Below, piece after piece: positions 8,134 to 20,750 of a DNA stretch of 21,859 bases. The stretch is from a virus. The translations under genes were made by a program, and so were the position numbers. The number at the start of each line of letters is the position of its first letter. Positions within the stretch are counted from its first letter, which is position 1. The stretch covers positions 1 through 21,859 of IMG/VR virus record IMGVR_UViG_3300047550_000814. The stretch is one strand, 5' to 3'. The notes beneath the pieces were generated by a model. That model did no database searches. It had not been told where the DNA came from and worked only from the letters and a program-made list of their open reading frames with translations.

Positions 8134-8571
8134 ATGGCAACTACTGGACCAGTAAACGGCACGCTTATTAGCATCTATAAGGATGTAAGCGGCACACTAA
8201 CTAAAATCGCAAACGCGACCTCGCACAGCATTGACTTTACTAAGGACATGATTGATGTAACTAACAAAGACAGCGCAGGTGCTAAGGAATTTATTGCGGG
8301 CGAGTATGGCTACACTTTGAGTGTAGAGGGAATTTTTGAAAACGAAGCAAGCGTAAGCGCAAGCGGTTTGTCTTTTAAAGACATTTTGACCGACTGCCTA
8401 GCAGGTACTTCTGTAACTGTTGTGTTTACTACAAATGTAACAGGAGACGACAAATGGACTGGCTCGGCTTTCTTTAGCGCTTTGTCTTTGACAGCTCCAA
8501 ATAATGACAAGGCTACCTTTACAGGAACCTTGCAAGGAACTGGCGCTATTACCGCAGGTACTGTTTCATAA
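8134..8571 (+). CDS. Major tail (tube) protein
   Basis: This is the likely tail-tube subunit, 145 residues. 'GTLISIYKDVSGTLTKIANATSHSI' at the start and 'MIDVTNKDSAGAKEFIAGEYGYTLSVEG' in the middle are typical of the TP901-1-type major tail family, in which the protein asks whether a sample is 'D-V-T-x-K-D-S'. The end, 'TGTLQGTGAITAGTVS', is the usual beta strand. Position immediately before the chaperone frameshift pair and the tape measure agrees with this. It uses more T-ending codons than the neck genes, though less markedly than the capsid gene, as expected for an abundant protein. Confidence 0.9.
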   Translation: MATTGPVNGTLISIYKDVSGTLTKIANATSHSIDFTKDMIDVTNKDSAGAKEFIAGEYGYTLSVEGIFENEASVSASGLSFKDILTDCLAGTSVTVVFTTNVTGDDKWTGSAFFSALSLTAPNNDKATFTGTLQGTGAITAGTVS

Positions 8572-8582
8572 TTTATTTAGTT

Positions 8583-8590
8583 TATATTTG
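8583..8590 (+). promoter_or_regulatory. Possible -7 promoter element before the tail chaperone gene
   Basis: TATATTTG at 8583-8590 fits TAnnTTTG exactly and ends 4 nt before the ATG at 8595, which would give a leaderless or nearly leaderless transcript. No TTTG is present at the expected -33 position, about 20 nt upstream, so the match may be by chance. The 23-nt gap here is one of the longer breaks in the late block. Confidence 0.25.
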
Positions 8591-8594
8591 TGCT

Positions 8595-8924
8595 ATGAGC
8601 ACAGAAATTAAAATCGGGGGTGCTAGTCACCCCCTTTTGTTTAACATGAATGCGCTGCGCAATGTAATGCAGTTAGCAGGCATGCAAACTTTTGCAGACT
8701 TAAGCATGGAAAAAGACATTGCTAAAAGCATGGACTTTGCTTTAAGTTGTGCATTTTATGGAATACTGGAAGGCTACGAAAGGAATGGCGAAAAGACACC
8801 GTTTAAAAGCGTAGAGGATTTAGGCGCTAGCATTAAACGCTTTACAGAATTGACGCCAGCGCTGGACGCGTTTACGCAAGCAGTTACTGACTTTTTTTCC
8901 AGCGACGAGCCAGAGGGAAAGTAA
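8595..8924 (+). CDS. Tail assembly chaperone, short form (gpG-like)
   Basis: This 109-residue protein is the product of ordinary termination at the TAA at 8922. It has an N-terminal 'EIKIGGASHPLLFNMNALRNV' segment, typical of tail chaperones, then helices, and an acidic tail SSDEPEGK. In lambda-like siphophages such a protein coats the tape measure with its frameshifted longer form before the tail tube assembles. It lies between the major tail protein and the tape measure, as expected. The last codons read through the slippery heptamer GGGAAAG at 8915-8921, so part of translation continues into the next frame. Its function is inferred from position, size and the frameshift. Confidence 0.88.
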   Translation: MSTEIKIGGASHPLLFNMNALRNVMQLAGMQTFADLSMEKDIAKSMDFALSCAFYGILEGYERNGEKTPFKSVEDLGASIKRFTELTPALDAFTQAVTDFFSSDEPEGK

Positions 8925-9265
8925 AAGCCAAGGGCGACAGCGCCCCGCTTACTTGGCAAAAAATAGAGCGTATAAGTTACGGCGAATTAAATTTAAGCGA
9001 GGCAGAGTTTTGGAAATGCACGCCACGCTTTTGGCGCTTAAAATTAGAAGGCTTAAGAGAGTCCCAGACTATGCAATATAGAAACGACTGGGAACTTATG
9101 CGTTGGGCTGTTGCCACCTCTATGGCGCCGCACCTAAAAAAACCAATAGAGCCGAAACGCTTGTTAACTTTTCCATGGGAGGAGAGCGACTATATTAGTA
9201 TAGAGGACGCCATTAAACTATATTCGCATGTCTTCGACAAATTAACCCCAGACGCTAAAGCATGA
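8595..9265 (+). CDS. Tail assembly chaperone, frameshifted long form (gpGT-like)
   Basis: A -1 shift after the AAG codon at 8919-8921 re-reads base 8921 and continues with no stop to the TGA at 9263-9265. The fusion has 223 residues: 109 shared and 114 from the T-like domain. That domain begins VKAKGDSAPLTWQKIERI, continues with helical, Trp-rich segments (FWKCTPRFWRLKLEG, NDWELMRWAVATSMAP), and ends with a Pro-rich and acidic part. The first ATG in this frame is at 9071, 150 nt into the domain, so the domain is unlikely to be made alone in full. Adding the second domain is what lets the lambda protein recruit the tail tube subunit; the same role is inferred here. Confidence 0.88.
8915..8957 (+). 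promoter_or_regulatory. Programmed -1 ribosomal frameshift site: slippery heptamer plus hairpin
   Basis: The heptamer GGGAAAG (8915-8921) is in the proper X XXY YYZ phase relative to the short chaperone, and it is the same heptamer that lambda uses for G/GT. A 5-nt spacer (8922-8926, which contains the TAA) precedes a bulged hairpin. GCCAAG (8927-8932) pairs with CTTGGC (8952-8957), and GGCG (8933-8936) pairs with CGCC (8941-8944) around loop ACAG, with CCGCTTA as a one-sided bulge. Both stems are perfect. All parts have the spacing expected of a stimulator. Confidence 0.9.
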
Positions 9266-9669
9266 GCAGCCCAATAAAAATAGCCTATAACATACTAAGT
9301 AATTACAGCGCGCTTACTGCTTTAGTAAGCACTCGAATTAACCCGCTTAGAATACCGCAAGAGAGTGCCTTTCCAGCCATAAGTTATAACCTCGTTAGCG
9401 TGGTGGCTAGCCCCACAAACACAAGCCACAGCCGTACAGACTTTGCACGAGTGCAGGTTAATAGTTTTGGAACGAGCTTTGCTAGCGCTACGGCTGTTGC
9501 CGAAAAGGTACGCGCTGCGTTTGAGGCCGCTACATACCCAGCAACTTTTAACGGAGTCTATTGCCAAGCCATAGAGTTTGACAGTGAGGTACAGTTAACG
9601 GACGACGAGGCGGGGTTTGCTGGTATTTACCAAGTGAGCCAAGACTTTATAATTAATTATATTCGGTAA
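9262..9669 (+). CDS. Tail terminator/completion protein, DUF3168-like
   Basis: This 135-residue protein resembles the DUF3168 family, whose members cap or complete the tail tube at the head-proximal end. Visible hallmarks are 'NYSALTALVSTRINPLRIPQESAFPAISYNLV' at the start, the 'DFARVQVNSFGTSFASATAVAEKVRAAFE' central segment, and a late 'GIYQVSQDFIINY' strand. The order is unusual: such genes usually precede the major tail gene, but here it follows the chaperones and directly precedes the tape measure. It overlaps the long chaperone stop (ATGA at 9262) and shares one base with the tape measure start. Confidence 0.85.
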   Translation: MSSPIKIAYNILSNYSALTALVSTRINPLRIPQESAFPAISYNLVSVVASPTNTSHSRTDFARVQVNSFGTSFASATAVAEKVRAAFEAATYPATFNGVYCQAIEFDSEVQLTDDEAGFAGIYQVSQDFIINYIR

Positions 9670-11555
9670 TGGCAAGGAGTTTAAATATAGTAATAGGCGC
9701 GGACATTGAAAAACTGCGCAAAGGTTTAGCAGACGCTGTAACTGCCATTCAGGAAAGCGGTGCTAAAATGTCTGCCGACACTGCTAAAAGTGCTAAGTCA
9801 ATACAAGACAAACTAGCGGAAATAGCAACTAAAAACCCAACGGCTGGAACGGTTAGGCAGTTAACTAACTTAGCCATGCAAACGCGTGCGCTAGGCCCAG
9901 AGTTTGCTGGTATGGCTAGCCAAATTATTCGAGAGGCTGGTAGAATAAAAGACAGCATAGGCGACGCTCGCGCTGAGGTGAGTTACTTTGCTAGTGACAC
10001 TCGCAGACTAGACGCCGTGCTAGGTGGAGTTAATGCTATTGCTGGGGCTTTTGGCGCAGTAGAAGGCGCGCTAGCAATTACTGGAGTACAGAGTGAGGAC
10101 TTACAGAAAACTATGGTAAAGCTCCAAGGAGCAATAGCGTTAGTTAATGGAGTTACAGCAATACAGGCAGCATTACAACAAGAGAGCGCTGTGGCCCAAG
10201 GGGTGCTAGCAGCGGCTACACAATTACAAGCGTATGTAATGGGCCAAGCAACACTAGCAGCCCGCGCTTATTCTGCTGCGTTAATTGCAACGGGGGCAGG
10301 TGCTGTTATTGTGGCTATTGGCTTAGTAATTACTTTGTTTCAAAAGAGCGCTAAAGCAATAGACGAGGCAAAGGAAAGGCTAGCAGCATTAGAGCAACAG
10401 CAAGAGCGTGGGCTTACATTGGGCCAGCGCAGAATTAAAGCAGAAGAGCGCGCACTTGAGTTAGCAATAAGCCGAGCAAAAGCAGAAGGTAAGAGCGAGC
10501 AGGAAATTTACAACATAAAGAAAGCCAGTCTAGACAAGCAAAAAGCCATTTATACACAATATGGCAAGGAGGCTTTAGAGCGTTTGTATGCACAACGCCG
10601 CGAAGAAATGTACCTAGCAAATAAAGACGGCAAAAAAATTGCCGAAATTTCTGCTAAGTACACGCAACTAGAAGCCGACTTAAGGTATTCAATTAATGAG
10701 GAATACCAAGGCAAAGTAGAGCAATTAGAAATTGACAAAAACGAAAACATTGCCAACCAACGCAAACAAGGGCTAAAGGATTTAAAGAAAAATTTAGACG
10801 AAGAGGTAAGCGCCGAAGAATTAGCGGCGTTAAAAATTGCCTATATAAAAGGGCAAGGCATTACAACTAAAATAGAAAATAAAGAAAGGCAAGGTTTAAA
10901 GCCTTTTAACATTGCGCCAGTTGACCCGAAAGCGCCGAAACAATTAGAATATACTTTTAAGCAAATTGATTACGCCTTTTTAAACCAACTAGAAAAGCAA
11001 CAGGAATACGAGGAAAGGTTTACTAGTGCCATGGAAGGAGTTAACCAAGCCTTCAATAGTTTGACAGCAGAGGGCTTAGAAAGTTTTGGGGATTTAATAG
11101 GCGGCGTCATGACTGGGCAAATAGACAGCGTCGACCAGTTCGGTAAAGCCATGCTGCAAAGTGTCGCTAAATTTATGCGGGCTTTTGGTAGCGCATTGGT
11201 TACAACAGCCACGGCCTCTAAAGCGTTTAAAGAGTTAATACTCAAAAACCCAATGGCGGCAGCTGCTGCGGGTGTTGCGCTTATTGCTGGCTCGGCAGTC
11301 ATAACTGGCATGCTAAACAAAGGACCACAGCCCAAGGCTTTTGCAGAGGGCGGTATAGTTAGCGGCCCAACTTTAGGACTGGTTGGAGAATACCCCAACG
11401 CTAGAACAAACCCAGAAGTTATAGCGCCTTTGGACAAATTGCGCGGCATGTTAAAAACAAACGACTCTAGTGGTTACATTGCTAGCACTAGCATAAACGG
11501 CAGGGACTTGGCAATAGTTTTAGAACGGTATAATAAAGACAGCAAACGCGGCTAA
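9669..11555 (+). CDS. Tail tape measure protein
   Basis: The tape measure fixes tail length and later helps DNA pass into the cell. It is the longest helical protein in the window at 628 residues. The N-terminal 200 residues are Ala/Gln-rich helix. A hydrophobic stretch lies at about 203-224 (IATGAGAVIVAIGLVITLF). A long, charged coiled-coil region spans about 228-390. Another Ala/Gly-rich hydrophobic segment (MAAAAAGVALIAGSAVI) lies near 550. The end has the family's recurring 'FAEGGIVSGPTLGLVGE' and 'NPEVIAPLDKL' pattern. Compared with long-tailed phages it is short; at about 0.15 nm per residue it would set a tail of roughly 95 nm. No peptidase domain is apparent. Confidence 0.93.
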   Translation: MARSLNIVIGADIEKLRKGLADAVTAIQESGAKMSADTAKSAKSIQDKLAEIATKNPTAGTVRQLTNLAMQTRALGPEFAGMASQIIREAGRIKDSIGDARAEVSYFASDTRRLDAVLGGVNAIAGAFGAVEGALAITGVQSEDLQKTMVKLQGAIALVNGVTAIQAALQQESAVAQGVLAAATQLQAYVMGQATLAARAYSAALIATGAGAVIVAIGLVITLFQKSAKAIDEAKERLAALEQQQERGLTLGQRRIKAEERALELAISRAKAEGKSEQEIYNIKKASLDKQKAIYTQYGKEALERLYAQRREEMYLANKDGKKIAEISAKYTQLEADLRYSINEEYQGKVEQLEIDKNENIANQRKQGLKDLKKNLDEEVSAEELAALKIAYIKGQGITTKIENKERQGLKPFNIAPVDPKAPKQLEYTFKQIDYAFLNQLEKQQEYEERFTSAMEGVNQAFNSLTAEGLESFGDLIGGVMTGQIDSVDQFGKAMLQSVAKFMRAFGSALVTTATASKAFKELILKNPMAAAAAGVALIAGSAVITGMLNKGPQPKAFAEGGIVSGPTLGLVGEYPNARTNPEVIAPLDKLRGMLKTNDSSGYIASTSINGRDLAIVLERYNKDSKRG

Positions 11556-19340: not shown

Positions 19341-19919
19341 TTATTTTTTCAGTGCCTCATTAATTGCAGTAACGGCCCTAGGCTCTTCGTGCTGAATGTC
19401 TATAACCTCTTCTGTGGTGTGCATGCCCATAGTAATTTCTGGAGCATACAAACGGCCAAAAAAAGCAGCTGCACGGTAGCGCATCATTAACTCTGGCATT
19501 GTTTTCCACTTGCTGCCTGCTTTGTCTAGCCAGCCTTCTGCCTTTGCCATTTCCATAGTAACCAGCGGGCCCTCTAAAGTTTCGCCCGTGGCTTTTTCTT
19601 GACAAACCGCCTTGATACCTTTGGCTAAGTCGCCAACAAAGCGCAGGGCAGTGAACTTTCCAGAGCCATTTATAGCCGCTATAATAAACGAACTGCCCCA
19701 ACTTGGGCGCCCGTGTATTATGTTTAAGTTTTGCATAACCATGAGCGGGCTAGCGCCTATTCGGTTTGCAATTTCCAAAGCCACCAAGGTATTAGCTACA
19801 TTGTTTTTGTACTGTTGTGGCACTAGGTCGGAGGCGCTTAGTGCTTTCGCCTGTCTTTGCGCCTGCTCAAACGAAGAGAGCGGGGCGGCTTGTTGTGTTA
19901 GTTCTGTTTTATTTTCCAT
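19341..19919 (-). CDS. recT: Single-strand annealing protein, RecT family
   Basis: This 192-residue protein is a RecT-like recombinase, which binds single-stranded DNA and anneals complementary strands. Visible family features are 'VANTLVALEIANRIGASPLMVMQNLNIIHGRPSWGS', the conserved 'GPLVTMEMAKAEGW', and 'PELMMRYRAAAFFGRLYAPEI' near the end. It is a little shorter than well-studied RecT proteins but keeps the core. It overlaps the exonuclease gene by 11 nt, as expected for a RecE/RecT-style pair, and precedes the small nuclease. The pair is probably used in recombination-dependent replication and repair of the phage genome. Confidence 0.9.
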   Translation of the reverse strand: MENKTELTQQAAPLSSFEQAQRQAKALSASDLVPQQYKNNVANTLVALEIANRIGASPLMVMQNLNIIHGRPSWGSSFIIAAINGSGKFTALRFVGDLAKGIKAVCQEKATGETLEGPLVTMEMAKAEGWLDKAGSKWKTMPELMMRYRAAAFFGRLYAPEITMGMHTTEEVIDIQHEEPRAVTAINEALKK

Positions 19920-20679
19920 AGTTAAAAATGTTTAATTCCTGTACGCCGTCGCCATAGCCGTGCCAGTCGTTTGAATTTAGACAGGCGGTAAATGTTTCTA
20001 TGTCTTTGCGGTATTGCTCACGGCCTCGCTCTATGTCTTCTGCTGTTAAATAATAGACAGCCACCAAGTGAGGCGGCGCTTTTTCAACTGCAATAAAAAA
20101 GAAGCCCTCGCATTCGGTCCCTCTGGATGCTTTAAAGCCGTCCATATAAAACGCCGTTTGCACATGGTAGCGGTATTTTACAACGCTGCGAGCAAAGCCT
20201 TTAGGGCTAGCGTCGTCAGTCGTTTTGATGTCAATTAAAAGCGAATTACTGGTCAGTCTGTCAAAAATACCACGGCAGGGCAGCCCGCTTATTTCGTCTG
20301 TCCAGTTTTCCATTATTTCACTGTCGCCAGCAAGCCCAAGCAAATAACTGGCAGCAGGGTGTTGGTAAATAGCGTGGTTAATGCCCTCTATTATTTCGTC
20401 CTGCTCTTTGGTTAATACTTTTAGACCTTCCGACTGTTGCAAAAAATTCTCCCATTTTTCTTTACCGTCCTTAGTCCGTCTGTCTAATGCTGGTGCAATG
20501 GTAAACCGCTTGCCAAACTCGGCAGGCTCTAAAATGCGGCAGTGTACTGCTTGGCCTAAAATAAGTGCTGGGCTTTCTGTCGCGTCGTCTATGCCGTCTA
20601 TATACTTGCGTTTATAAAGTGCAGGCGCGCGGTTAATTAAGTCGAGTCTCGACTTGCTCAAGATGTGCTGTAATTTCAT
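19909..20679 (-). CDS. RecE-like PD-(D/E)XK exonuclease
   Basis: This 256-residue protein resects DNA ends to give single strands for the annealing protein. All PD-(D/E)XK signatures are in order: the G-x-x-x-H of LGQAVH (Gly42, His46), Glu123, the RGIFD motif (Asp140), the LIDIKT motif (Asp150, Lys152), and the Q-x3-Y of the RecB/RecE group (Gln174, Tyr178). It is similar to DUF3799-type putative exodeoxyribonuclease VIII. I chose the ATG whose first base is 20679 because it lies 4 nt after the promoter -7 element; an upstream in-frame start at 20745 would begin before the promoter. Translation probably starts without a leader. Confidence 0.92.
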   Translation of the reverse strand: MKLQHILSKSRLDLINRAPALYKRKYIDGIDDATESPALILGQAVHCRILEPAEFGKRFTIAPALDRRTKDGKEKWENFLQQSEGLKVLTKEQDEIIEGINHAIYQHPAASYLLGLAGDSEIMENWTDEISGLPCRGIFDRLTSNSLLIDIKTTDDASPKGFARSVVKYRYHVQTAFYMDGFKASRGTECEGFFFIAVEKAPPHLVAVYYLTAEDIERGREQYRKDIETFTACLNSNDWHGYGDGVQELNIFNYGK

Positions 20680-20683
20680 AAAA

Positions 20684-20715
20684 CAAACATAGCCAATAAG
20701 TCCTATATTTGCAAA
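20684..20715 (-). promoter_or_regulatory. Bacteroidota-type promoter for the recombination operon
   Basis: On the minus strand TTTG (20712-20715) is followed by exactly 20 nt and then TATGTTTG (20684-20691), a full match to the Bacteroidota -33 TTTG / -7 TAnnTTTG promoter. The -7 element ends 4 nt before the ATG at 20679, so the transcript would begin at or close to the start codon. This is the best promoter in the window. Confidence 0.7.
20704..20711 (+). promoter_or_regulatory. Possible divergent plus-strand -7 element
   Basis: TATATTTG at 20704-20711 fits TAnnTTTG and lies inside the spacer of the minus-strand promoter, so the two would compete for polymerase. No TTTG is found at the expected -33 position, which makes this weak. 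It is a candidate for driving the + strand genes at 20869 and beyond, with a leader of about 150 nt. Confidence 0.25.
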
Positions 20716-20750
20716 TCGGCTTTGTGTCGGTGTTCTGTATTTCATAGGCG

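Follow-up and report, generated by a model that had tools for sequence, protein, structure and literature searches.

The viral DNA analysed here, a stretch of 21,859 nucleotides that we call the window, raises a simple question: how is the second of two overlapping reading frames in its tail region translated? All features of the tail region given below lie on the + strand. The zero frame, G (8595..8924), starts with ATG at 8595, encodes 109 residues and ends with GAG GGA AAG TAA, the stop codon occupying 8922-8924. The last codons before this stop form an in-phase slippery heptamer, G_GGA_AAG (8915..8921), which is the sole copy of GGGAAAG within the window and is abutted at its 3' end by the TAA. 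In the -1 frame the nearest upstream stop is found at 8888-8890, after which the frame is open to a TGA at 9263-9265. A slip of one base at the heptamer would append to G a second domain, T (8921..9265), consisting of 114 codons and then the TGA, and the predicted G-T fusion would have 109 + 114 codons, that is, 223 residues. An earlier note on this DNA had read a 109-residue frame ending at TAA 8922 right after GGGAAAG and a -1 frame without a stop to 9265. Both readings follow directly from frame and phase, and the open frame up to the TGA confirms the 223-residue fusion. The note had also proposed that the arrangement is a programmed -1 frameshift yielding a G/GT tail chaperone fusion. In essence this turned out to be right, as it is supported by the relatives of the window, by the pattern of coding changes and by the homology of T.

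We therefore regard it as almost certain that the locus is a siphovirus-like tail module producing G and G-T chaperones by programmed -1 ribosomal frameshifting, where the slippage itself, its efficiency and the roles of the chaperones are what we infer. According to the proposed mechanism, the majority of ribosomes would translate the 109 amino acids of G and terminate at TAA 8922. A minority, with tRNAs positioned on GGA and AAG, would be held by an RNA structure located 5 nt downstream, slip one base back to GGG and AAA and translate the T domain to 9262, giving the 223-residue G-T. By analogy with phages lambda and TP901-1, G would coat the tape measure protein, and a small proportion of G-T would recruit the tail tube protein via its T domain.

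The features of the window by themselves are suggestive, short of conclusive. GGGAAAG is expected 2.2 times by chance in the window, so the heptamer alone is not rare, and a slippery heptamer that is in phase and abuts the stop has a chance of 0.7% in codon-shuffled G genes. Chance is excluded by conservation of the shift site and of the open frame downstream of it, together with depletion of synonymous change in the 3' element. Scanning viral contigs with G and T produced 152 distinct junction-spanning sequences, among them the window itself, whose G they match at identities down to about 65%; this number counts sequences, not independent events, and many of them are closely related. All 152 have a shift site followed by TAA at this position: GGGAAAG in 90 of them and GGGGGAG in the remaining 62, which form a sister clade. 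Counted from the heptamer, the open -1 frame measures exactly 116 codons in 147 sequences; it reaches the contig end in 4 and is interrupted in 1. The interrupted sequence comes from the GGGGGAG clade, and owing to a small insertion in the 3' element its -1 frame runs for only 27 codons; it represents either a mutant or an assembly error. Of the observations that the earlier note had named as speaking against a frameshift, relatives without a slippery site are absent among the 152 and a stop between the domains is found just once.

The sister clade locates the shift more precisely. In 61 of its 62 members the overlap between the frames is just 16 nt long, and the shift must therefore occur at GGGGGAG. 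The codon preceding GGG in this clade may be ACG, GCG, GAG, GTG, CAG or AAG, so that the leading G of the heptamer stays constant under six codons although the encoded amino acid varies. Likewise, a tree of 144 sequences places zero changes at 8915-8917, against 5 and 7 at the two bases before them. GGGGGAG departs from the canonical XXXYYYZ heptamer. The closest parallel is the GGGGGAA ('fivetwo') site reported with PRFect for many SEA-PHAGES (actinobacteriophage) chaperones, where G:U re-pairing has been discussed (PMC10885494). The site of the sister clade is similar in being a G-run in which re-pairing in the A site is possible through G:U, but it ends in G instead of A, and the window itself uses GGGAAAG. 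We found no phage shift site with the sequence GGGGGAG described in the literature searched, coverage of which was partial. The switch between GGGAAAG and GGGGGAG above one retained, nearly unchanged RNA element is the less ordinary trait of this system. The sister clade thus amounts to a natural heptamer swap, offering a ready-made comparison of what the site and the stimulator each contribute.

Might T instead be a separate gene overlapping G, initiated at ATG 9071 or another internal start, perhaps by reinitiation after the TAA? The window does have ATG 9071, and among the 89 sequences compared for start codons an ATG occurs in 88 at the position of 9053 and in every one at 9122. Nonetheless, the 88 sequences other than the window have CAA or CAG in place of ATG 9071, and the window is without the ATG at 9053, which makes an independent start of T unlikely and not a shared design; the candidate start at 9071 was rejected on these grounds. 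The -1 frame of the window contains no ATG, GTG or TTG before 9071. The earlier note had remarked that without a shift 8925-9070 looks empty and the second domain lacks a start of its own, and the relatives bear out both points. On the tree of 144, changes per site at -1-frame codon positions 1, 2 and 3 are 2.0, 1.5 and 7.6 over 8925-9070, next to 2.4, 1.0 and 10.7 over 9071-9262; changes in G across the relatives are biased to third positions as well. The third-position bias over 8925-9070 means that this stretch is protein-coding in the -1 frame right after the slip, so the frameshift accounts for it, whereas any of the internal starts would drop at least 46 post-slip codons that evolve as a -1-frame protein. 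Separate initiation also gives no reason for the kept phase of the heptamer, for the TAA or for the 3' element. Taken together, these observations make a separately started T very improbable.

A structure that stimulates a -1 shift is expected at about 5-9 nt 3' of the heptamer, and the predicted 3' hairpin (8927..8957), placed by RNAalifold consensus, pairing and synonymous constraint, begins 5 nt past it. For the window (8922-8957) the minimum free energy is -12.9 kcal/mol, only modestly better than that of dinucleotide shuffles (z -1.6) and of codon-preserving shuffles (p about 0.02). Since a hairpin judged from one sequence is insufficient, we turned to the relatives. Synonymous third positions over 8927-8953 have undergone 18 changes versus 115 expected at matched degeneracy, which is about sixfold depletion (p about 5e-6). 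Over 8957-8971 there are 10 changes versus 66 expected (p 9e-5), and from 8972 on the synonymous rate is back to normal (131 changes versus 139 expected). No ten-codon stretch of T varies less at synonymous sites than the one beginning at 8927, and every ten-codon window of G varies more. This depletion supports a real 3' stimulatory RNA that is under selection and that would take the form of a bulged 10-bp hairpin. The RNAalifold consensus of 21 distinct sequences has a 10-bp stem, in which GCCAAGGGCG pairs with CGCU and, past a 2-nt bulge, with CUUGGC, and a 9-nt loop. The outer stem, GCCAAG/CTTGGC, is essentially invariant, its pairs being kept in at least 99% of relatives. The inner stem can pair in two near-isoenergetic ways: as GGCG/CGCT with the 2-nt bulge in the consensus, or as GGGCG/CGCCC, which the window prefers (-12.9 versus -11.7 kcal/mol). 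This calls for a small correction to the bulged two-part hairpin that the earlier note placed 5 nt downstream of the heptamer: the inner pairing favoured in the window alone differs from the consensus of the relatives. Double (compensatory) changes in the stem were not found among the relatives; the changes are one-sided and mostly preserve pairing, and variation is low, so covariation speaks neither for nor against the hairpin. Rfam gave no match to the element.

The hairpin may extend into an H-type pseudoknot (8940..8971). The loop bases GCGC (8940-8943) can pair with GCGC or GCGU (8968-8971) in every sequence, with one-sided change and no double changes. When the pseudoknot is added, third positions under constraint (0-1 changes) fall on paired bases and the more variable ones (2-8 changes) on unpaired bases; the hairpin without it leaves the constraint at 8941 and 8968 unexplained. 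On the other hand, the model is post hoc, having been picked with the data in view, chance readily supplies a 4-bp match, and several other conserved 4-bp matches are present besides GCGC/GCGY. For the first two of these reasons we give the pseudoknot somewhat less than an even chance. An earlier version, pairing 8946-8949 with 8967-8970, was rejected: it has equal pairing counts, but takes bases of the consensus inner stem, and is itself a 4-bp match of the kind that arises easily by chance.

The same element bears on transcriptional slippage, by which RNA polymerase would stutter on an A- or G-run and mixed mRNAs would restore the frame. The longest run in GGGAAAG is three, and a homopolymer run of three is short for polymerase slippage. 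Moreover, the in-phase pattern and the constrained 3' RNA element suit slippage of the ribosome. What can be counted for the polymerase is the five-G run of the sister clade and the use of slippage on homopolymer runs by some bacterial genes (PMC5009743), and we rate this explanation just as poorly as separate initiation of T. That G and T are truly one frame, split by a sequencing or assembly error or by gene decay, is in effect already refuted by the relatives, for although single metagenome contigs may contain frame errors and one relative appears broken, the arrangement is shared by 152 distinct sequences that stem from many separate metagenome records, and both frames are under purifying selection.

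Programmed frameshifting thus being the preferred reading, the identity of the two products can be considered. T is the better characterized. It matches Pfam family Phage_TAC_6 with an E-value of 1.5e-4 and 22.6 bits, just under the curated cut-off of 23.4, and it is homologous (hhalign probability 96%) to the downstream domain of a Bacillus phage Silence protein annotated as a frameshifted chaperone. T also matches phrog_16333, a family of 'unknown function'. The downstream domain matches this family in the window, Silence, Bacuni_F1 and phi39:1 alike, so phrog_16333 probably represents the T domain of these chaperones. G shows weaker similarity. Seven of ten relatives match the tail protein family phrog_2115 weakly (best E-value 3.2e-4), and the structure model of G is of low confidence (mean pLDDT 63). 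With this low-confidence model the top viral fold match is a tail assembly chaperone (E-value 0.027, probability 0.99), and no match was obtained among PDB folds. The G profile has no significant relation to the G of Bacuni_F1 or phi39:1. Given the weak family matches and the low-confidence model, the assignment of G as the zero-frame tail assembly chaperone rests mainly on its position and fusion.

The gene neighbourhood is that of a tail module. Directly upstream of G lies the gene for the major tail (tube) protein (8134..8571; PF06199, E-value 3e-14; phrog_1407, E-value 2e-25). The -1 frame is followed by a tail terminator/completion gene (9262..9669; PF11367, E-value 5e-12; phrog_347 tail terminator, E-value 4.6e-11) and then by a gene for 628 residues (9669..11555) presumed to encode the tape measure protein from its position and length only, as it has no match to any family named tape measure. 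In lambda the chaperones are encoded in the interval from the major tail protein to the tape measure region, and the earlier note had claimed the same gene position here. The major tail protein gene is directly upstream; the order is not exactly that of lambda, because in the window GT is followed by a tail terminator ahead of the presumed tape measure gene. The stop codon of T and the start codon of the terminator gene overlap as ATGA (9262-9265 in the window) in 147 of 147 sequences, which suggests translational coupling of the terminator to the frameshifted product. If translation of the terminator needs ribosomes arriving from T, only frameshifted ribosomes feed it. It is tempting to speculate that frameshifting also controls how much terminator is made, tying a low-copy protein to the rare G-T, but we consider this unlikely.

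Several experimentally studied or annotated systems resemble the one described here. In lambda, a -1 shift near the end of G at a site of the G_GGA_AAG class likewise gives a short and an extended product; these, gpG and gpGT, are required in a ratio of about 30:1, and the tail tube protein is bound by the T domain (PMC5009743). The earlier note's statement that lambda has the same heptamer agrees with the literature on G_GGA_AAG and TP901-1. The window differs from lambda in having a stop that abuts the heptamer and a 3' RNA element under constraint. Lactococcus phage TP901-1, which belongs to a different phage lineage, has the identical GGGAAAG at the 3' end of the gene for gpG, where it is mutationally required for T of gpGT: mutation of the heptamer abolishes tails, and a permanent G-T fusion leads to non-infectious particles (PMC4493119). 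Bacillus phage Silence (CPT_Silence16/17; KT001912) has the homologous T, annotated as a joined CDS with C_CCA_AAG followed by TAG. Unlike the window, it has a different heptamer and its tape measure gene comes directly after T; the identity between the T domains is only about 33%. Geobacillus phage GBK2 and Bacteroides phage Bacuni_F1 have C_CCA_AAC and A_AAA_AAA, respectively, near the end of the upstream frame, each with a -1 relation. The corresponding regions (1609-2288 in GBK2 and 2169-2821 in Bacuni_F1) are annotated as separate hypothetical proteins whose frames would be joined at in-phase CCCAAAC and AAAAAAA, and the two junctions are probably unannotated chaperone frameshifts. In Cellulophaga phage phi39:1 the G and T frames are related by +1 (or -2) across a run of eight A residues (2447-2460), and the record annotates two genes.

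Frameshifting of this type is itself well known in tailed phages; the window adds an undescribed lineage to those with a lambda-type tail assembly chaperone frameshift. Standard annotation would miss the fusion, as anticipated in the earlier note: an ordinary gene caller reports a protein of 109 aa together with a T that is truncated or missing, and reading the locus as a frameshift corrects the annotation of T. The lineage probably infects Bacteroidota, because relatives of T are found in Cellulophaga and Bacteroides phages and a box resembling the Bacteroidota promoter TAnnTTTG precedes G. A search of bacterial genomes for the host found no relative of T, the only hit being a 27%-identical capsid in a Francisella record, which is uninformative. 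The box in question, TATATTTG (8583-8590), lies 4 nt upstream of the G start codon, and the relatives listed retain it as TATNTTTG within a few bases of the ATG. It may serve as an internal promoter, in which case the leader of G would be very short or absent. Elsewhere in the window, a DNA methyltransferase gene (507-1133) is situated between the small and large terminase genes, and genes for a RecT-like annealing protein and exonuclease VIII (19341-20745, - strand) are encoded on the strand opposite to the structural genes.
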